Assembly (NCBI GenBank): GCA_003635265.1
Contig: PYIZ01000006.1
Coordinates: 20,736 to 84,735, forward strand
Length of the DNA: 64,000 nucleotides
Source of the DNA: Candidatus Poribacteria bacterium
GTDB lineage: Bacteria > Poribacteria > WGA-4E > PCPOR2b
Reading direction: 5' to 3'
Shown here: piece after piece, positions 6,401-34,762 of the stretch
Position numbering within the stretch: position 1 is the first letter of the stretch
How the letters are laid out: every line of letters begins with the position of its first letter
Position numbers and translations under genes: made by a program
The notes under the pieces: generated by a model
The model's input: only the letters and a program-made list of their open reading frames with translations
What the model was told of the DNA's origin: nothing
The model's database searches: none

Positions 6401-8043
6401 TGACCTACACAATGCAGCCACCCCTTGTAGGTGCTGATGATTCGATTCTCCAACGCGGAAGTGATAACACCGTTTCTGTTAAAATTGTTGATAGCGAGGG
6501 GTACACCGCTGAAAATGGTATTAGTTTCGCCGTTTCCTTAGATAATACCCCGCCGGTGATTTCAGGACCTGCTCCGCAGGGTGAGATCACTCGGAAAATC
6601 GGTCGAATCACCGCACGCGTAAGCGATAACGAATCGAACATCACACGCATTCAGTACGCGCTTGATGATGCACCACTTACGGATATTTCGTTCTCGCCCA
6701 GTATGGTCGTCGAAGTGGGACGCGGGAAAGAGGTAAAGGGTCAGACCTCCTTTAACCTGTTTGACGCTCCACTCGGAACACACAGTGTGACGATCATTGC
6801 TGAAAGTACCGGCGGTACGTCAACCTTAACGTGGGAATTCACTATAGTCAATCCGGATACCAAACCACCGGAGGTGGTCACCTACTCACCGCTCGGAATC
6901 ATTCGGACGGATAGACCGATACTCGCTGCAACAGTGAGCGATGAATCTGGCTTCAAGCGGGACGGCATCACACTTATCCTCGCAGGTGTCCCAGGAAATC
7001 AAGGTTCAGGTAGACGTTCAAGTCCGACCTCTACAACTGTTACATTCACGCCAAGTATTTCGGTTACACCGGGTCCCTACACTGCAAGGCTCACGGTGAT
7101 AGATAAATACAACAACCGAACCGAGGCAGAATGGCAGTTCACGGTTGAATTGGACAGCACGCCGCCAGCAATTACGACGACTTCGCCGCACGGAGTGGTT
7201 CAGGTGGATAGACCGATTATATCGGTCTCCGCCAGCGATGATATGTCCGGTGTAGATACCATTGATATCTCGGTCAAAAATGAGAGCAGTCAGGCGGTCG
7301 CAGGCGTAACTTCAGTCCGGTCTGATAGGACATCAGCCACCTTTACGCCGACCGCAGCGCTAACAAGTGGGACATATACCGTTGACGTTAAATTGGCGGA
7401 TATGAGTGGAAATAAAGCGTCAGGTCAATGGCAATTTACTGTTGAGCTTGATACAGTAGCACCGATCGTTCTCGACACGCGTCCGTCGCAGGAACACACC
7501 GAAAATCGGAGGCCCATGATCTCGGCGACCTACACGGATGCCGTGTCCGGTATTGACGTCGGATCGGTGAAGCTCACGCTTGATGGTTCACCTGTTGAAC
7601 CAGACGCACTGTCAGACACTCAGGTGACGTTCACACCTAAGGCTGACCTACCATTCGGTCCGCACACGGTGAAACTTGAAGTCTCCGACATGGCTCCATC
7701 AGCGAACACCGCAGTTCAAGAGTGGACGTTCTATGTCGAACGGATTGGTATTGCGAATGCACGGAATTATCCGAATCCATTTGAGGATGAGACCACGATT
7801 GCCTTCAGGGTTTCGAGGCAAGCGAGCATAACCGTCCGGATTTACGATTTCACCGGTAGACTCGTCGCACGACCTGTGACAAATTCACGCTATGAGGCGG
7901 GCGAAGTTAAGATTGATTGGCACAATCAAACCGCTGCAGGCGATCACCTCGCACGAGGCGTGTACTTCTGCCATATTCTCATGGAAGACGATAACTTTGA
8001 GTCTCAATCTGCTATTCTCAAGATGGCAATTATTACCGAATAG
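1..8043 (+). CDS. Giant secreted multi-domain Ig-like/adhesin protein (5' end outside window)
   Basis: The reading frame is open from base 1, so the gene starts upstream and the GTG at 58 is an internal Val codon. At least 2,680 residues are visible. In order: short beta-sandwich domains resembling carboxypeptidase-regulatory/Ig modules (bases 1-1070); two copies of a ~587-residue module, each opening with PPTLxLGGLSINT (from 1075 and 2836); linker beta domains; at least three Ig-like repeats with the pattern D-x-x-PP-x-x-x-x-x-SPxG near 6850-7740; and a C-terminal ~95-residue domain beginning NARNYPNPF (about 7750-8040). That last domain resembles the FlgD-Ig/type IX (Por) secretion tail. 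A surface or extracellular adhesin/matrix role is inferred. The next gene encodes a PorV/PorQ-like protein, which fits a type IX-like export route. Confidence 0.85.
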   Translation, partial: STLSNKDLGTTGSGEAIRNVTTDIVVPPRSVTTLVVKGMVYKEDGSTSAGSGLNVMVTVGSTSQAVQTKTDGSYEALFISDLIAPVAMTGDAISVVVSDGSGPRGENDPAESTLSNKDLGTTGSGEAIRNVTTDIGFTTSILAVGGTVYLKNGDTDHVAAAKHLRETELTVTVTNTTLGIQRTGVVDDDGEYEILIIGGNFATVGETDDIIVVEVKNDAGVAVGNNSHTLTIDDIKATRADLDVETTVPARVLTLHVEGDVIELNGSSAGLGVEVTLTIVMNGIPNEAQVVTDATGHYRHLFAAVSPGAPAARTDDILRVQVLRMANGYFGYREMELRTHELAYENQPLIVMPPIKLIPPTLRLGGLSINTSHADEYYGYLSLEAIKKNPELLQLIPSGILHVDLSQNLLASLPSGFNPTPDPTADITKMFDIDSENFGNGITPRPAWHVLAGSSPADSGRWLNGNQLSLYVVTGPVPSVQSVTFTLTGPQGGTMKADPVAAGGHMHNFQLEEERAILFLPSWPSLNMNAEIFSGVTLMIDGQAPIPMTSKLVGDEVVWEAPATLTTGSTVYYYYQVTLAQPYELDDGTVVSSWPMPDPRNLQVQNRGIVETLLAPDVPELKEIVTTTDLKLRSVFDVPALAANESLWVATFDFPAGTDGAYSVDTVVQYEGGLTRSIPNQMFTLDRAAPTAGITAAIGASAGMYERDDGSYVTAAHTDEGTLTLTTMPMAAPSESAAYLYQIIRLDDEGNPGNQVWNPITVTGEMLPLTYMDPHQIQIPIGDMGNYGIRAVGIDSILNISSNTMPRMLDIVSPDPDVATLTLVHADYNGDGTTDGPFEMEQAADSATIFSDRSNVHLTFEMMATDHPLKSIAIDFQINGEGDWKPIAMLTGDALEGAKAGFEVDWDRTADFADLLDMRGKATVRVTVTNALDLEGESSTSLALVPPTLQLGGLSINTGYESGLEALKTISGLDITALATNTLGMDPFSLITPSPLPIALALLGTLNHIQSMLPEGFETGDLQIHRENFGNALTPKPIWYFMASPENRDAGRWVNSNQLHLYTLAGPTAKSVTFSASGAGVAMADAEKVETGGTFKYNFQLEEELVAIFAGSMPAFAAVTLMIDGQAPIPMAGNAGIWSAEAALAPGYPVSYYYGVKLAQPYHDPINMITIDAFPFPDPRNLQAVETANLAETLEALFTSELNPLGTMDAPFRSVFTVPAVDDASQSLWVGKLDIPADGMYQLDVAVQYSGGSADELTGKMFTVDTTAPTASTMIHDTPDDNIGMYHREDGVYVAAALPDPGRAILNVSATPIDDSDLEAYLYQFAALDADGNPGTWNPMVTVDLQTPDIAKLLTNPASALPLTSRPPHHVQMLVRSGAGSDLDHGMYGLRVVGIDNILNADSTRETGVRLELVAPDPDSAMVSLVQADYDGDGTVDGPYETQSTAGDVTIFSDSMVTLTVEITERTDHPLTIEVEYQVAGGDWHSIGTLTAEATSAMVGDQLPVSWHVGDYAELPNTTGHVMVRTVATNGLTIERTSEVSLAYERRLAPAIAAIHVDAADLHPTSNAPRGGITISAFTQAMTNPTTTAIQFEIRRAADADGDWQPIGIAQLLGDTTVVSNVQTPLIQDLIGTIVAGAPNAPLSSFYRHWSISVDTTTLEDTILDGTAAETDASQDDNPYVVQATAVDVAGMGYPSADGVGADFSVDNYSPTEITQVDNEVGTVEPDENGNYYVSGLIAEDVPAPMRKLTAWTGAYPGVFPGGIKLVVNDADSGAAVEIPETIFGAEGSYTYIGDFQLASVENGVYTFKAVAYTADGMAEERIVARPITVEVRNFNPLTDILSIMVIDTEGEVRSPSEIDTMYPIGFPAIEDQFTFTLTTNHVRANEIDVMIGDDGDSARMLGALTDDGIMVTANADGSTSFEIMLDTSMLEDGRFNLTGTITKPNGSAPFDLPGIRVDRAAPVVEIVSPIARSQLTSSPTIQVTYSDASGFDPNDMAMEEMPVVITLTRLPSGEVIDVVEGLIHITAAAEGEIQTQMGNIVYTHGDPLPGGAYRIDATVTDILGNVGSAEPVEITVEGLKPTVSVMSPLSGQIVDPRQPLIVSVALTGSGELTVTEFQINGMDMEGTLEDNWLTYTMQPPLVGADDSILQRGSDNTVSVKIVDSEGYTAENGISFAVSLDNTPPVISGPAPQGEITRKIGRITARVSDNESNITRIQYALDDAPLTDISFSPSMVVEVGRGKEVKGQTSFNLFDAPLGTHSVTIIAESTGGTSTLTWEFTIVNPDTKPPEVVTYSPLGIIRTDRPILAATVSDESGFKRDGITLILAGVPGNQGSGRRSSPTSTTVTFTPSISVTPGPYTARLTVIDKYNNRTEAEWQFTVELDSTPPAITTTSPHGVVQVDRPIISVSASDDMSGVDTIDISVKNESSQAVAGVTSVRSDRTSATFTPTAALTSGTYTVDVKLADMSGNKASGQWQFTVELDTVAPIVLDTRPSQEHTENRRPMISATYTDAVSGIDVGSVKLTLDGSPVEPDALSDTQVTFTPKADLPFGPHTVKLEVSDMAPSANTAVQEWTFYVERIGIANARNYPNPFEDETTIAFRVSRQASITVRIYDFTGRLVARPVTNSRYEAGEVKIDWHNQTAAGDHLARGVYFCHILMEDDNFESQSAILKMAIITE
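1075..4640 (+). repeat. Diverged internal duplication, ~587-residue module x2
   Basis: Two modules start at 1075 and 2836, a period of 1,761 bp. They share landmarks in the same order: PPTLxLGGLSINT, ENFGNxxTPxPxW, GRWxNxNQLxLY, FQLEEE, VTLMIDGQAPIPM, PFPDPRNLQ-like, FRSVFxVPA, DPHQ/PPHHVQM and LVxADYxGDGTxDGP. They are alike at the protein level but diverged at the DNA level. Exact ends are approximate. Confidence 0.8.
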
Positions 8044-8057
8044 CAACATTCACTTCT

Positions 8058-8094
8058 CCTCTGACTCGGAATCCAACCGATTCCGGGTCAGGGG
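8058..8094 (+). terminator. Intercistronic hairpin between the giant gene and the PorV-like gene
   Basis: The arms are 8058-8073 and 8079-8094, 16 bp with two G-U pairs and a 5-nt loop. No T-run follows, so it is more likely an attenuating or RNA-processing hairpin than a full terminator. It would allow different expression of the giant protein and its downstream partner. Confidence 0.55.
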
Positions 8095-8120
8095 ATTTGC
8101 CTTCATAAAGGAGGGAGACA

Positions 8121-9047
8121 ATGTTTCAACTTAAGCATAAAGTACTATTCAGTTCAATCGGGTTTATTGCCCTCGCAGTTTTGCTTGCACCTGTCTGCTT
8201 CGCTGGCGTGAATGCTGCACCTCATCTTGGGATGGGAAGCGGTGCGCGAGCGCTGGGGTTGGGCGGTGCTTTTACCGCTGTCGCTAACGATGCGACTTCA
8301 ACAATATGGAATCCCGCCGGATTGCCAGCTGTCAAGGATTTAACCGTAACACTATCTTCTACACCGATGTCTCTTGATAGGAAACACAGTTTTATCGGCT
8401 TGGTCAAACGGGTCGGTAAGGGTGGTCTGGGGCTATCAGTAATCAATGCTGGCGTCGATGATATACCTTCCTACGATAAAAATGGGGTCAGGACTGGTTC
8501 ATTTAACCAGACATCTAACGCTTTTGCCTTCTCCTATGGTCATCACCTTGGTGTCGTGGCGCTCGGTGCGAGTGCACGCATGTATATGGATAGCTTCGGA
8601 GATCATTCGAGTACAAGCGGCTTCGCCGGTGCTGATGTCGGACTTCTCGGAGGCAACAGAGCCAGAACCTTCAACTTTGGTATCGCGGCGAGGAATCTTG
8701 GCAGCGCAATCGGTGACGACACGGTGCCCGTGATAATAGCGGGCGGTCTTGCATATCGAGTGCTGCACAAACACGTTGCAACCTTCTCCGTCGATGTTCA
8801 ACACGAAATCCTTGAGATAGGGGAATCCACTACCAGTCTTCATCTTGGAACCGAATACCTGATCGCAAAAACCTTTGCAATTCGGGGTGGCAGTAGACTG
8901 ACCGAGGATCGCGCTCAGTTTTTCGGCGGATTTGGTGTCAACGTCGGTGGACTGCAACTCGATTATGCCGTGAAAGCAATTGAGAGTTCTATCTATGATG
9001 ATATTGATGGCGGTACGCACTTTGTATCACTCTCTTATAGCTACTAA
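8121..9047 (+). CDS. PorV/PorQ-family outer-membrane beta-barrel protein
   Basis: 308 residues. A signal peptide (about residues 1-29, ending near FAG) is followed by the family's hallmark N-terminus, GxGxxARALGLGGAFTAVANDATSTIWNPAGL. The rest alternates short hydrophobic strands typical of an outer-membrane barrel and ends in an aromatic strand (SLSYSY). In Bacteroidetes, PorV and PorQ are type IX secretion outer-membrane components; in other phyla related proteins are of unknown role. The start is set by AAGGAGG about 6 bases upstream of the ATG. It lies 77 bp after the giant gene, whose C-terminal NYPNPF domain could be its cargo signal (inference). Confidence 0.85.
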   Translation: MFQLKHKVLFSSIGFIALAVLLAPVCFAGVNAAPHLGMGSGARALGLGGAFTAVANDATSTIWNPAGLPAVKDLTVTLSSTPMSLDRKHSFIGLVKRVGKGGLGLSVINAGVDDIPSYDKNGVRTGSFNQTSNAFAFSYGHHLGVVALGASARMYMDSFGDHSSTSGFAGADVGLLGGNRARTFNFGIAARNLGSAIGDDTVPVIIAGGLAYRVLHKHVATFSVDVQHEILEIGESTTSLHLGTEYLIAKTFAIRGGSRLTEDRAQFFGGFGVNVGGLQLDYAVKAIESSIYDDIDGGTHFVSLSYSY

Positions 9048-30129: not shown

Positions 30130-30160
30130 GGCGAATGGGTCGACCCATTCGCCTTTTTTA
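30130..30160 (+). terminator. Rho-independent terminator (AGGCGAATGG family, 1 of 3)
   Basis: A 24-nt perfect palindrome (30130-30153: 10-bp arms GGCGAATGGG/CCCATTCGCC around TCGA) is followed by TTTTTTA. Related terminators are at 32081 and 34731. Confidence 0.92.
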
Positions 30161-30349
30161 TTGATTATCCCGAAAAGGCTACTAAGAGATAACCTAAATT
30201 TTTTACAGACAAATTGCTCTGCAGCCCGATCGCAGCATCCGGGAAACACGGTTTAAGGAAAAATCCAATTAATTTCTCAAAATGATAAAAAAGTGCTATC
30301 AAAAATCACGGAACGGTGTTTTATAAAGTGTAAGGGAGGAATCAGAACA

Positions 30350-31855
30350 GTGGCTAACGACAAGGTACTCGTTTCCCGTGCCCAATCTGGAGATGAAGAA
30401 GCATTTGCTCACCTGATGCGGGCGCATTACGCCTTCGTTTATGCGATTGTCATTGAGATTGTGAACAATCCCCACGATACCGAGGAAGTTGTCCAAGACA
30501 CCTTTCTGAACGCCTATCGTGGTTTAGCACAGTATGAGGAGCAGACCAAATTCAGAAGTTGGCTGGCAACAATTGCGCGAAATCGTGCACTGAATTGGTT
30601 ACGAGAACAGAAAATGGAGACCGTGTCCATCAACGAAGTGGAGGAGCACGCGCTTCAGACTCCGAATACGCTTGATGACCAGTTGATACGCGACGAACAG
30701 CGGGAACTGATTCGCCGTGCAATGGAGACACTTTCGCAGAAAGATAGGGAGATTGCTCGCTCATACTACCTTGATGGCGCAAGCTACGACGAATTGACAA
30801 GGACGCACGGACTGTCATACAAGGCGATTTCGTTTCGATTGTCCCGTGCGAAGCGGAGACTCGCCAAACGATTGCAATACCTGCTTACTGGCTTATCTGT
30901 TCCTCCGGCAACGACACTCAAACAGATCTACTCAGGAGGATTCACCGCTATGAAAATTGGAACGGCTCCCAAAATCACTGAAACAAACCTAACAAACCTT
31001 GATCTTGCTAACAGAGGTAAAGTCCGGGATCTCTACGACCTCGGTGAGGAATTATTAATCATCTCAACGGATCGGATCTCGGCGTTTGATGTTGTGCTGC
31101 CGAATGGGATTCCGTACAAAGGAAAAATCCTAACCGGCCTCTCCGAGTTCTGGTTTAATTACACAAAATCGATCGTTGATAATCACATCATCACCACTGA
31201 TGTTTCACAATATCCTGATGTGCTGCAAGCTGATGCGGAAGTGCTTAAAGGACGATCAATGCTCGTGCGGAAAGCCAATCGAATCGATATCGAATGTGTC
31301 GTGCGGGGATACATCGCGGGTTCTGCGTGGTCAGAGTATAAACAGGATGGAACAGTATGTGGGGAAAAGCTGCCGGCAGGGCTAACGGAATGGGAGCGTT
31401 TGCCAGAACTCATTTTTACGCCCGCCACGAAAGCGGAGCAAGGAGAACATGATGAGAACATCTCAATTGCAGAGATGGAGGCGGAGATTGGCAAAGAATT
31501 GTCAGAAAAGATTATCCAGACCAGCTTCGCGCTGTTTGAAGCCGCGAGCGAACATGCCGAAAAGTCCGGGATTATCCTCTGCGACACGAAGTTTGAATTT
31601 GGGCAGATTGATGGTCAACTGATTCTCATTGATGAGGTCTTCACCCCCGATTCCTCTCGCTTCTGGCCCAAAGACGAATATAAGCCCGGCAGTTCTCCAC
31701 CCAGTTTCGATAAGCAGTATGTTCGGGATTATCTGAGTGATGTTGGCTGGAACAAAGAGCCCCCGGCGCCTGAATTGCCTGCGGAGGTCATCAGTCAAAC
31801 CAGTGAAAAATATCTGGAGACATATCGCTTAATTGTTGGGCAGGAATTATTGTGA
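30350..31855 (+). CDS. Fusion: ECF RNA polymerase sigma factor + SAICAR synthetase (PurC)
   Basis: 501 residues from the GTG at 30350 (GGGAGG upstream; an earlier GTG at 30293 has no SD). Residues ~10-80 are sigma region 2 (DTEEVVQDTFLNAYRGL, FRSWLATIARNRALNWL). Residues ~110-165 are sigma region 4 (SQKDREIARSYYLDGASYDE, AISFRLSRAKRRL). After a Pro-rich linker (LTGLSVPPATT), residues ~201-501 are a complete long-type SAICAR synthetase: GKVRDLYDLGEELLI, STDRISAFDVVLPNGIPYKG, RGYIAGSAWSEY, FTPATKAEQGEHDENIS, and CDTKFEFG near the end. PurC makes SAICAR from CAIR, Asp and ATP in purine synthesis. An internal AGGAGG plus ATG at the domain junction could also yield PurC alone. No stop or frameshift separates the domains. 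Confidence 0.85.
   Translation: MANDKVLVSRAQSGDEEAFAHLMRAHYAFVYAIVIEIVNNPHDTEEVVQDTFLNAYRGLAQYEEQTKFRSWLATIARNRALNWLREQKMETVSINEVEEHALQTPNTLDDQLIRDEQRELIRRAMETLSQKDREIARSYYLDGASYDELTRTHGLSYKAISFRLSRAKRRLAKRLQYLLTGLSVPPATTLKQIYSGGFTAMKIGTAPKITETNLTNLDLANRGKVRDLYDLGEELLIISTDRISAFDVVLPNGIPYKGKILTGLSEFWFNYTKSIVDNHIITTDVSQYPDVLQADAEVLKGRSMLVRKANRIDIECVVRGYIAGSAWSEYKQDGTVCGEKLPAGLTEWERLPELIFTPATKAEQGEHDENISIAEMEAEIGKELSEKIIQTSFALFEAASEHAEKSGIILCDTKFEFGQIDGQLILIDEVFTPDSSRFWPKDEYKPGSSPPSFDKQYVRDYLSDVGWNKEPPAPELPAEVISQTSEKYLETYRLIVGQELL
30934..30952 (+). promoter_or_regulatory. purC: Internal ribosome-binding site and ATG at the start of the PurC domain
   Basis: AGGAGG (30934-30939), then 10 bases, then in-frame ATG (30950-30952; MKIGTAPKITE). 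Translation from here would give a 301-residue PurC, the normal length of the long-type enzyme. Confidence 0.6.
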
Positions 31856-32305
31856 CGGTTGGCTGTGACGCTAGACATCTGTTGACGTACTCCCAAACCT
31901 AAAGGATTGGGAATCTCACCCGTTTCAATAGGAGTGGAATTGTGCTATCATGTTTGTCAGGCAATGCCTAATAAGCTGCGAAGTTAGCTCCGATTTATCG
32001 GAGACTTACGACCTCTCCCACATATGAGAATTAGAATAAGACATTAAACTAGTCCACAACTCTATCCCATAGGTCTTCACAAGGCGAATGGTTCAATCCA
32101 TTCGCCTTTTTTTATTTGTCGAGCGCGAATAATCTGTTATTCTAAGAATCCTTTAATCTAGTATATCCTGATTCAGACAGTTTGGCGACAGGTGCACCCC
32201 GCCAATCATCTTCTCTTTGCATCAAAAAAATTATATACCCGTGTAATATTCTGGTCTTTTGCGTCGTCATACTCAATGAAGCCATTTCTTGGGAGAAGCG
32301 AAAAC
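31856..32305. other. 450-bp non-coding region between the two sigma fusions
   Basis: It holds a possible extended -10 (TGCTATCAT near 31941-31950), a CTCCGATTTATCGGAG palindrome (31988-32003, family B) and the terminator at 32081-32113. A short transcript between 31955 and 32113 could exist, but no RNA family was recognised. Codons upstream of 32306 in the frame of the next gene look non-coding. Confidence 0.5.
32081..32113 (+). terminator. Rho-independent terminator (AGGCGAATGG family, 2 of 3)
   Basis: 11-bp arms (32081-32091 AAGGCGAATGG with 32098-32108 CCATTCGCCTT) with loop TTCAAT and a run of seven T. Confidence 0.92.
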
Positions 32306-34561
32306 ATGTACACAGAAGACGAACATATCATCGGAAGATGCCTCAATGGGGAACCGGCGGCGTTTGGCTTGCTGGTGGATAAGTACAAATCGAGTGTGTA
32401 CGCCCTTGCTTATACAAAACTGAGAAACTTCCACGATGCTGAGGACATCACCCAAGAGGTATTCCTCAAAGCGTATCAGAAACTTTCCACTCTCAAGCGA
32501 CGGGATAATTTCTTGGCGTGGTTGTTCTCGATTACCGTCAATTCGTGTAAAGATCTTTTGAAATCTAGGACACTTCGTCCAGATAGAGACTACCTTGAAG
32601 ATCAAAATGCTACACTCTGGAACGTGCCGTCAATTGATGCCTATCGAACCGAATCGGCAGCCGAATCCATCCGCGAGGCGATTGATGAATTGCCCGAAAT
32701 CTATCGACAGTCGTTGACGCTCTACTATCTTGGCGGTCTGAGTAGCAAGGAGATTGCGCGATTTTTAGGTGCTTCCGTCGACACCGTCAATCAGCGACTG
32801 ATGCGAGCCAGGATTAAACTGAAAGAGGAGATGATTGTGACGATGAACGGAGTAGAGGTATCAACAATACATTGGGTAAGAAACTTTGAAGAAGCGTTAC
32901 AAATTGCGGCGCAGGGCGACAAGCTGATAATGATTAATTTTCATACAGACCTGTGCTATTGGTGCGATCAGTTAGATCAAAAAACCTTTACGGATTCCAG
33001 AATCATCCAACTGGCATCAGAGTTTATATGCTTAAAATTGGATATAGAAAGAAACACTGATGCTGTGATACGAACTAAGCAGTACAACATCAATGCCTAC
33101 CCAACGATAGTCTTCACGGATAAGGTCGGGCATGAAATTTTTCGAGTCAATGGTTATCGTCCTCCGGCAGAATTTCAGCAGATACTTCTTGAACAGGTAT
33201 TGAGGAATGACAATCGTATCAAGGAACTGGAACTTCGTATCGATCAATGTTTCGATGAACAGAGTAACAATTTTGAGCTTGCAATGCTTTATTTGAAACA
33301 GGAACGCATTGATCGCGCAACTCCCTTGATTCAGGAAATATTAGGTGCTGGTCTTCCCGAGGGCGATGAAGCGCTATTGCAGATGGAGTATGGAATCACT
33401 TTGGCACGTGCAAATCAATATGCGGAATCCGTTGACTGCTTTCAACGAGTCATTCAGCTATCAACTGGAAAGGAACTAGTGCAACAAGCCCAGTACTGTC
33501 TTGGAATCACGCACGGTATCATGGAGGACATTGATTCGTGTCGTACCTGCTTCAAGGCATGTATCGACATCAGTACAGATAATTGCACATGGTCTCAACA
33601 GGAGGCAGCGAGAAGACTCAACCAACTTGGGGCACCAATCCCATCAGGATTTTCAGGCGGTTCTAGCGCTGCAATAAATCAACTCTCTGAAGAAAACCGA
33701 GATAAAATCGCTTTTGTTTCTAACAGGGATGGGTGCAACGAAATTTATGTTATGAATGCAGACGGAAGTGAACAAAAGCGCCTGACATATCGTGGGTCAC
33801 AAAACGCTAACTTTCCGGCCTGGTCCCCTGACAGAACACAGATTGCTTTTATCTCAAATGGACAGATCTATGTCATTAACGCGGACGGAACCGACGAAAA
33901 ATGTCTCTTTGATGAACTTCCAAGAGCCGCAGTAGATGGCTCAGTTTCTTGGTCCCCTGATGGTAAGTGGATTGCGTTTGGTCTGATTCTCGATCGAGTG
34001 TATTATAAGGAGGACCAATCTATGTCCAAAATTCGAGAAATCTGCGTCATTAATGTTGCCAAGGAAGGACAATTCTTTAACCTGACCAAGAATATGTTTC
34101 ATCTCGACGCACGGAAATGGAGTTCAGCACCCGTGTGGTCCCCTGATGGTTCACAAATTCTGTACAATACAATCTACGCTGACGGTTCAACGATTGTATA
34201 CACTACAGTCCCCGATGAAGATCGTAATCTTTATCTGATGAATAGCGATGGCAGTAACTTAAGACAATTAACTCACGGTGGTTCTGATGGTGGTGCTAGC
34301 TTTTCGCCGAATGGGAAGGAAATTGCTTTTGAATCATGGCGTAGTGGGGATTCTGAGATTTATCTTATGGACGCAGATGGAGAAAATGTACGACAGTTGA
34401 CACATAGCCAAAAGTACAGGGTGCCGAGATGGTCACCTGACGGCAAGAAAATCGTACTATATGATGCAAAGGCGATGAAGATATATATTATGTATCTTGA
34501 TGATGGTCGAACTGAATTGTTAAGTTCCCATAACGATTGGTATCCGTCGTGGGCTTCATAA
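32306..34561 (+). CDS. Fusion: ECF sigma factor + thioredoxin-like + TPR + PD40/TolB-like propeller
   Basis: 751 residues from the ATG at 32306 (GGGAG 10 bases upstream). Sigma region 2 is at ~8-67 (DAEDITQEVFLKAYQKL, NFLAWLFSITVNSCKDLL) and region 4 at ~122-174 (LPEIYRQSLTLYYLGGLSSK, VDTVNQRLMRARIKLKEEM). A thioredoxin-like domain at ~187-292 has an intact CYWC redox motif (217-220) and a cis-Pro in NAYPTIVF. TPR-like helices (~300-430) contain paired A-x-x-YAESVDCFQRVIQ segments. Six PD40/WD40-like blades (~470-751) carry IAFVSNRDGCNEIYVMNADG and FSPNGKEIAFES motifs. No transmembrane segment is seen, so all domains are predicted cytoplasmic. A stress-sensing regulator is inferred. Confidence 0.85.
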   Translation: MYTEDEHIIGRCLNGEPAAFGLLVDKYKSSVYALAYTKLRNFHDAEDITQEVFLKAYQKLSTLKRRDNFLAWLFSITVNSCKDLLKSRTLRPDRDYLEDQNATLWNVPSIDAYRTESAAESIREAIDELPEIYRQSLTLYYLGGLSSKEIARFLGASVDTVNQRLMRARIKLKEEMIVTMNGVEVSTIHWVRNFEEALQIAAQGDKLIMINFHTDLCYWCDQLDQKTFTDSRIIQLASEFICLKLDIERNTDAVIRTKQYNINAYPTIVFTDKVGHEIFRVNGYRPPAEFQQILLEQVLRNDNRIKELELRIDQCFDEQSNNFELAMLYLKQERIDRATPLIQEILGAGLPEGDEALLQMEYGITLARANQYAESVDCFQRVIQLSTGKELVQQAQYCLGITHGIMEDIDSCRTCFKACIDISTDNCTWSQQEAARRLNQLGAPIPSGFSGGSSAAINQLSEENRDKIAFVSNRDGCNEIYVMNADGSEQKRLTYRGSQNANFPAWSPDRTQIAFISNGQIYVINADGTDEKCLFDELPRAAVDGSVSWSPDGKWIAFGLILDRVYYKEDQSMSKIREICVINVAKEGQFFNLTKNMFHLDARKWSSAPVWSPDGSQILYNTIYADGSTIVYTTVPDEDRNLYLMNSDGSNLRQLTHGGSDGGASFSPNGKEIAFESWRSGDSEIYLMDADGENVRQLTHSQKYRVPRWSPDGKKIVLYDAKAMKIYIMYLDDGRTELLSSHNDWYPSWAS

Positions 34562-34730
34562 GCAATGAAATTCAGCTATCAGTGACCTCAAAAATGTTGC
34601 TCAAAGTTTTCAGTCGCTCTAGACAACACTTCCTTAGAAAAACAGGTCAAATCGGATTCCCTGACAATAGTTTCAAATTTACGGGTTCTGCAATGCCCTA
34701 ACTTGCAATTCCATCTCACAAAACTTCACG

Positions 34731-34762
34731 AGACGAATGGTTCAACCCATTCGTCTTTTTTT
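34731..34762 (+). terminator. Rho-independent terminator (AGGCGAATGG family, 3 of 3)
   Basis: 10-bp arms (34731-34740 AGACGAATGG with 34747-34756 CCATTCGTCT) with loop TTCAAC and seven T. The G-to-A change in the left arm is matched by C-to-T in the right arm. Confidence 0.9.

Follow-up and report, generated by a model that had tools for sequence, protein, structure and literature searches.

A putative soluble ECF sigma factor with a thioredoxin-like, TPR and PD40 propeller tail at a variable sigma locus of Candidatus Poribacteria

The window analyzed here is a 64,000-nucleotide stretch of a Candidatus Poribacteria contig, taken from a MAG of 5.3 Mb in 53 contigs (88.49% complete, 4.11% contaminated). 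Between a transaldolase-like gene and a PIG-L-like gene, the window carries two consecutive sigma fusion genes: an ECF sigma-PurC fusion and, following it, an ECF sigma factor extended by a thioredoxin-like domain, TPR helices and a PD40 propeller. The second gene reads on the + strand as an uninterrupted frame of 751 amino acids that starts with the ATG at 32306; its stop codon ends at 34561. An in-frame GTG upstream, at 32192, is an alternative start that would yield a protein of 789 amino acids. Copies of a hairpin terminator lie before the sigma-PurC gene and on either side of the fusion gene (Table 1).

Pfam domain calls on the 751-residue protein were judged by the curated cut-offs. Both sigma regions scored above them, Sigma70_r2 (PF04542) with 58.6 bits at residues 23–89 and Sigma70_r4_2 (PF08281) with 64.4 bits at residues 120–172, and the NCBIfam model TIGR02937 (sigma70-ECF) returned 89.7 bits against a cut-off of 42.9, placing the protein among the ECF (group 4) factors. 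The best PDB matches were ECF-type factors aligned across both sigma regions, for example 6in7_B at residues 4–172. Two thioredoxin models, Thioredoxin_7 (44.4 bits, residues 190–272) and Thioredoxin_2 (44.3 bits, residues 202–294), also exceeded their cut-offs, and this domain retains its CxxC as CYWC at residues 217–220. Only one TPR model, TPR_2, was above its cut-off (33.6 bits, residues 358–386); the remainder of the TPR stretch is supported by weaker Pfam matches together with alignment to six Trx-TPR homologues. PD40 scored 96.7 bits in the three stretches reported by Pfam, and repeat ends of the type WSPD/FSPN/SWAS at residues 506, 549, 611, 666, 709 and 748 mark six repeats. All of these recognizable domains are joined covalently, C-terminal to sigma region 4. 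No membrane segment was found in the 751-residue protein, where mean hydropathy over 19 residues peaks at 0.79. The original prediction had described a second ECF sigma factor extended by a thioredoxin-like domain with an intact CYWC, TPR-like helices and a six-blade PD40 propeller, without a membrane segment, and it is borne out on each of these points; the preceding sigma-PurC fusion that it mentioned is likewise real by Pfam and NCBIfam. Single-sequence structure prediction of the whole fusion protein gave a mean pLDDT of 40. Four cysteines within the TPR part (412, 415, 419 and 427; window 33539–33586) are missing from the six aligned homologues, and the cluster is a possible metal or redox site.

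Table 1. Coordinates, in window numbering, of the features at the sigma locus.
Feature	Position	Strand	Basis
Hairpin terminator before the sigma-PurC gene	30130..30153	+	Motif search
Neighboring ECF sigma-PurC fusion	30293..31855	+	Pfam, NCBIfam, synteny
Stretch unaligned to the syntenic G003 locus; 2,797 bases vs 55 in G003	31930..34726	.	BLAST boundaries
Hairpin terminator 5' of the fusion gene, then T run	32083..32106	+	Motif search
Leader copied along with the sigma part	32190..32305	+	DNA identity to C33 copy
ECF sigma-thioredoxin-like-TPR-PD40 propeller fusion gene, 751 aa	32306..34561	+	Frame, Pfam, NCBIfam
Sigma part, C33 sister copy as far as 32848 (end of DNA similarity)	32306..32848	+	84% identity; dN/dS 0.133
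Sigma70 region 2, residues 23–89	32372..32572	+	Pfam
Sigma70 region 4, residues 120–172	32663..32821	+	Pfam
Thioredoxin-like domain, residues 190–294	32873..33187	+	Pfam
CYWC motif, residues 217–220; first Cys at the Sec position of homologues	32954..32965	+	Alignment
TPR helices, residues ~300–445, homologous to Trx-TPR envelope proteins	33203..33640	+	Pfam, alignment
Cys cluster C412, C415, C419, C427	33539..33586	+	Residue positions, homologue alignment
PD40 propeller, six repeats, residues 465–751	33698..34558	+	Pfam, repeat motifs
Hairpin terminator 3' of the fusion gene, then T run	34732..34755	+	Motif search

The leader and sigma part of the gene (window 32190–32848) share 84% DNA identity with positions 7947–8603 of locus L021 on contig C33. 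This similarity ends at 32848, beyond which the C33 gene encodes a membrane segment followed by an M16 domain. No sigma relative other than the C33 copy exceeds 62% identity. A membrane-type segment following the sigma part (mean hydropathy of at least 1.8) was present in 16 of 17 scored among the 24 other sigma relatives, the other seven rows being left out of the count; in the single exception (L075), the frame stops 131 residues past the sigma motif, too early to reach such a segment. Pfam identified the tail of L021 as M16 and that of L122 as WD40, and further tails of these relatives appeared Kelch- or PD40-like by eye. On-board tails are therefore common among the sister genes, which are already tailed behind a membrane segment, and the window gene differs from them in the type of its tail rather than in the presence of one.

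Relatives of the fusion were also sought more broadly. A whole-protein query found no relative in a contig-wide genome scan. A scan with the sigma alignment confirmed 563 loci, and the best 80 of these were mostly from other phyla, the best match (L135) being 38% identical; among the same best 80 of 563 were eight sigma ORFs longer than 300 amino acids, several of them apparently extended by an out-of-gene upstream frame. The host genome contains 33 Sigma70_r4_2 matches, 13 of which fall within open frames longer than 300 amino acids. Sigma tails supported there by Pfam are ankyrin, LRR, M16, Sortilin/BNR-type and PurC, and the tail of L025 gave a sub-threshold TPR match only.

Comparison of the window and C33 sigma parts gave a dN/dS of 0.133 (dS 0.61, dN 0.081), a value averaged across both copies. 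A non-functional sigma part would have spoken against the original prediction; the regions are complete and the ratio is low, and from these the sigma part would be expected to remain active toward promoters. GC3 is 0.54 in the sigma part vs 0.42 and 0.40 in two tail parts, a drop that is compatible with a recent join. The lower GC3 of the tail would also suit a young, accidental fusion in which the tail protein is driven by the copied sigma leader and the sigma part itself no longer plays a regulatory role, as would the finding of the fusion in the window genome only and the frequent joining suggested by further sigma fusions, both at this locus and with purC in congeners. Such an accident is unlikely, however, given complete sigma regions, a dN/dS of 0.133 and a 2.25-kb frame that has stayed intact.

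The junction at the end of the sigma part could in principle serve two proteins from one frame, with an internal start near 32843 producing a free Trx-TPR-PD40 protein. GAGGAG followed by an in-frame GTG and ATG is found there (32825–32845), and in the neighboring sigma-PurC gene an AGGAGG at 30934 precedes an in-frame ATG by ten bases. The GAGGAG, however, encodes two Glu residues in a stretch common to the sister sigma gene and may be due to chance, and an internal start is considered highly improbable.

The Trx-TPR part of the tail has relatives throughout much of the phylum. At E 1e-20 or better, 61 of 84 phylum genomes gave a match, the window's own included, and 23 were without one. No second sigma-Trx-TPR fusion was detected in the 84 genomes at this threshold, which a strongly diverged fusion would escape. 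One in-frame TGA each was present in 66 of 67 Trx-TPR rows, in frames of at most 442 amino acids; the exception is the window fusion itself. In each of the 30 homologue loci that were read, the TGA falls on the first position of the active-site motif (UxxC), and the UxxC is preceded by a hydrophobic N-terminal stretch that, in most of them, resembles a signal peptide by eye. Because the host genome also contains a tRNA-Sec match (76.6 bits; gathering score 47), selenoprotein is the simplest reading of the TGA-containing homologues, and they are probably envelope-type selenoproteins. Loss of the CxxC in relatives, which would have weighed against the original prediction, was not seen: all 30 loci carry UxxC in the same place, and the window fusion has Cys where these homologues have Sec. 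The fusion tail aligns with the homologues from just past their N-terminal hydrophobic stretch, in an alignment that rests on six usable sequences. The homologues are just 27–37% identical to the tail, too distant to point to a direct donor. For the propeller, the closest match in its own genome beyond the window is 38% identical (C53:176746–177567). The widespread TGA-containing Trx-TPR protein is represented by 30 loci (L033–L061 and L008, for example L034) and lies in the host genome at C49:34813–35304; among the accessible papers searched, none mentions both "Poribacteria" and "selenoprotein".

These observations are best accommodated, with a probability that we put at about one half, by a soluble one-component ECF sigma factor in which a copied leader and sigma part were joined in frame to a cis-regulatory Trx-TPR-PD40 tail. 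A membrane-anchored sigma gene would have supplied a copy of its leader and sigma part to a locus whose complement of sigma genes varies. There the copied sigma would have been joined in frame, in the position of the signal peptide, to Trx-TPR and then the PD40 propeller, which may have joined either earlier or later than the sigma part. Given its complete regions and low dN/dS, the sigma portion has most likely kept the ability to bind RNA polymerase and promoters, and the tail most likely regulates it in cis. In such a protein, which would be cytoplasmic, the TPR and propeller would provide binding sites for a ligand or partner, and through its CYWC thiols the tail may be opened from or closed onto sigma regions 2 and 4; no membrane release would be needed, unlike for the sister sigma factors. 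Judged from sequence, redox control of the sigma factor by its tail is plausible. For sigma factors of the ECF class, control normally lies with separate anti-sigma proteins, and it would be reasonable, as originally proposed, for a covalently attached redox or metabolite sensor to stand in for one.

Alternatively, the tail could be a platform for protein interactions similar to that of ECF42 or ECF57, with a thioredoxin-like fold that is structural or separately enzymatic and senses no redox change. Repeat tails (ankyrin, LRR, propellers) do recur on sigma fusions of the host genome and its relatives, and the Trx-TPR homologues look envelope-type with Sec, so that the chemistry evolved elsewhere. 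Retention of both thiols at the active-site position, with Cys for the Sec of the homologues, speaks against this alternative, which we regard as possible though doubtful.

The reading of the tail as a cis-acting regulator is supported because the C-terminal extensions of ECF42, ECF57 and IutY set a precedent, and the general kind, ECFs with C-terminal extensions (ECF42, ECF57, IutY, ECF52), is already known. According to the accessible portion of an ECF review (PMC8999054), ECF57 has a WD40-like C-terminal extension thought to be regulatory via protein interaction and a Cys pair that could potentially connect sigma 2 with sigma 4, ECF42 depends for its activity on a C-terminal TPR extension, and IutY (ECF243) and ECF52 are membrane-tailed sigma factors. 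Compared with these outlines, the window fusion resembles ECF57 in that a repeat tail of propeller type (PD40, 96.7 bits, six repeats) comes after an ECF sigma part, but its sigma-part cysteines are residues 12 and 81, with none in region 4 (120–172). It lacks the Cys pair in this sense and is therefore not filed as ECF57. With ECF42, so far as outlined there, it shares a C-terminal TPR, which in the window gene is located between the thioredoxin-like domain and the propeller. The sister sigma genes follow the layout given for IutY and ECF52, namely sigma, membrane segment and further domain, whereas the window gene, with its hydropathy maximum of 0.79, has no membrane segment, and release through membrane proteolysis should therefore not apply to it.

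Modular sigma factors are also described in other groups. The accessible portions of two further papers report ECFs bearing WD40 repeats in Planctomycetes (PMC8567305), modular sigma70 factors in cyanobacteria (PMC11119718) and families of sigma paralogues carrying WD40, ankyrin or TPR modules (PMC8567305, PMC11119718); in those portions, no change of tail at one syntenic locus is described. The word "thioredoxin" is absent from PMC8999054 and has 0 occurrences in PMC11119718. Among the titles and abstract openings searched, neither a sigma-thioredoxin fusion nor any sigma fusion in Poribacteria is described.

The gene content of the locus was compared between genomes. In G001 no gene lies between the transaldolase-like and PIG-L-like genes and the two ORFs overlap, and in G002 they are separated by 314 bases without a sigma gene. 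G004 has a sigma-membrane gene and a 286-amino-acid ORF in this position, G003 has a sigma-PurC gene, and the window has both sigma-PurC and the sigma-thioredoxin fusion. When six further genomes were queried, no PIG-L gene of the locus type was found in G005 or G006 at E 1e-60, and in G007 the PIG-L gene was present without a transaldolase neighbor or sigma gene in the 8.5 kb read. Congeners thus have the same locus without sigma genes or with other tails, and sigma genes change tails there. The fusion is known from one MAG only, with no orthologue found at the search threshold, and repeats occur at both the window and C33 loci, as might be expected if assembly had wrongly fused a sigma gene to an unrelated one. 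Both flanks are nevertheless syntenic with G003, the frame is open across both joins, and the longest exact match, in the comparison with the C33 locus only, is 32 bases; a chimera is accordingly very improbable.

Sigma-PurC fusions were found in three species of one genus (window 30293–31855; L100 6148–7653; L101 5959–7404). Two have related sigma parts and occupy the same locus, and the third has a different sigma part and lies elsewhere (in G005, purC is fused to a different sigma). A solo purC is also kept in G003 and G005, and the window's incomplete genome shows the fused copy only. Compared with G003, the sigma part of the window sigma-PurC gene has a dS of 0.25, against 0.50–0.97 for four neighboring genes, and this lower value suggests that exchange or conversion took place more recently there. 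A tree test disfavors one common origin for the fused purC copies: placing G000 and G003 together gave a p-AU of 0.024 and placing all three together 0.023 (9 rows); the groups were chosen after the first tree, branch supports were low, and gene conversion with the solo copy would mimic this result. A free PurC could start at the sigma/PurC junction of the window gene, where the AGGAGG and the in-frame ATG span 30934–30952.

The hairpin GRCGAATGGNNNNANCCATTCGYCTTTTT, allowing at most one mismatch, gave 26 matches in 6 of 13 genomes searched, and a reversed-sequence control gave zero matches in the same 13. All 26 have a sigma ORF no more than 1 kb away, and 16 follow the stop of that ORF by at most 70 bases. 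The farthest is 979 bases from its sigma ORF, with another ORF between, and at G005:C245 the sigma frame near the hairpin is split in two. As a wider and tentative proposal, the genus may have a module-swapping sigma system, in which a cassette of leader and sigma coding part, often bounded by hairpins, would spread between loci and species and acquire new tails through repeated in-frame joins. These tails would include membrane-anchored sensors, metabolic enzymes such as PurC (probably by more than one separate join) and a redox domain with envelope selenoprotein relatives. New one-protein circuits would thereby arise at a recombination hotspot.

Tail swapping around the locus is more novel than the fusion gene itself. 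In sister species, one locus has no sigma gene, a membrane-tailed one, an enzyme-tailed one, or an enzyme-tailed one together with a second sigma that has a soluble, redox-type tail. If the tails regulate, the origin of one-component sigma signaling would be directly testable here, as would the transfer of an envelope redox domain into the cytoplasm, with Cys taking the place of Sec.

Runs of sigma-membrane genes, about 19 kb each, were also observed, with four genes at G003:C89 (L112) and six at G004:C123 (L113, L114). Their tails resemble an NTF2-like sequence pattern, but in the two examples searched they gave no Pfam match. The genes of these runs consist of sigma, membrane segment and an unassigned domain, and in most the hairpin lies just past the stop codon.
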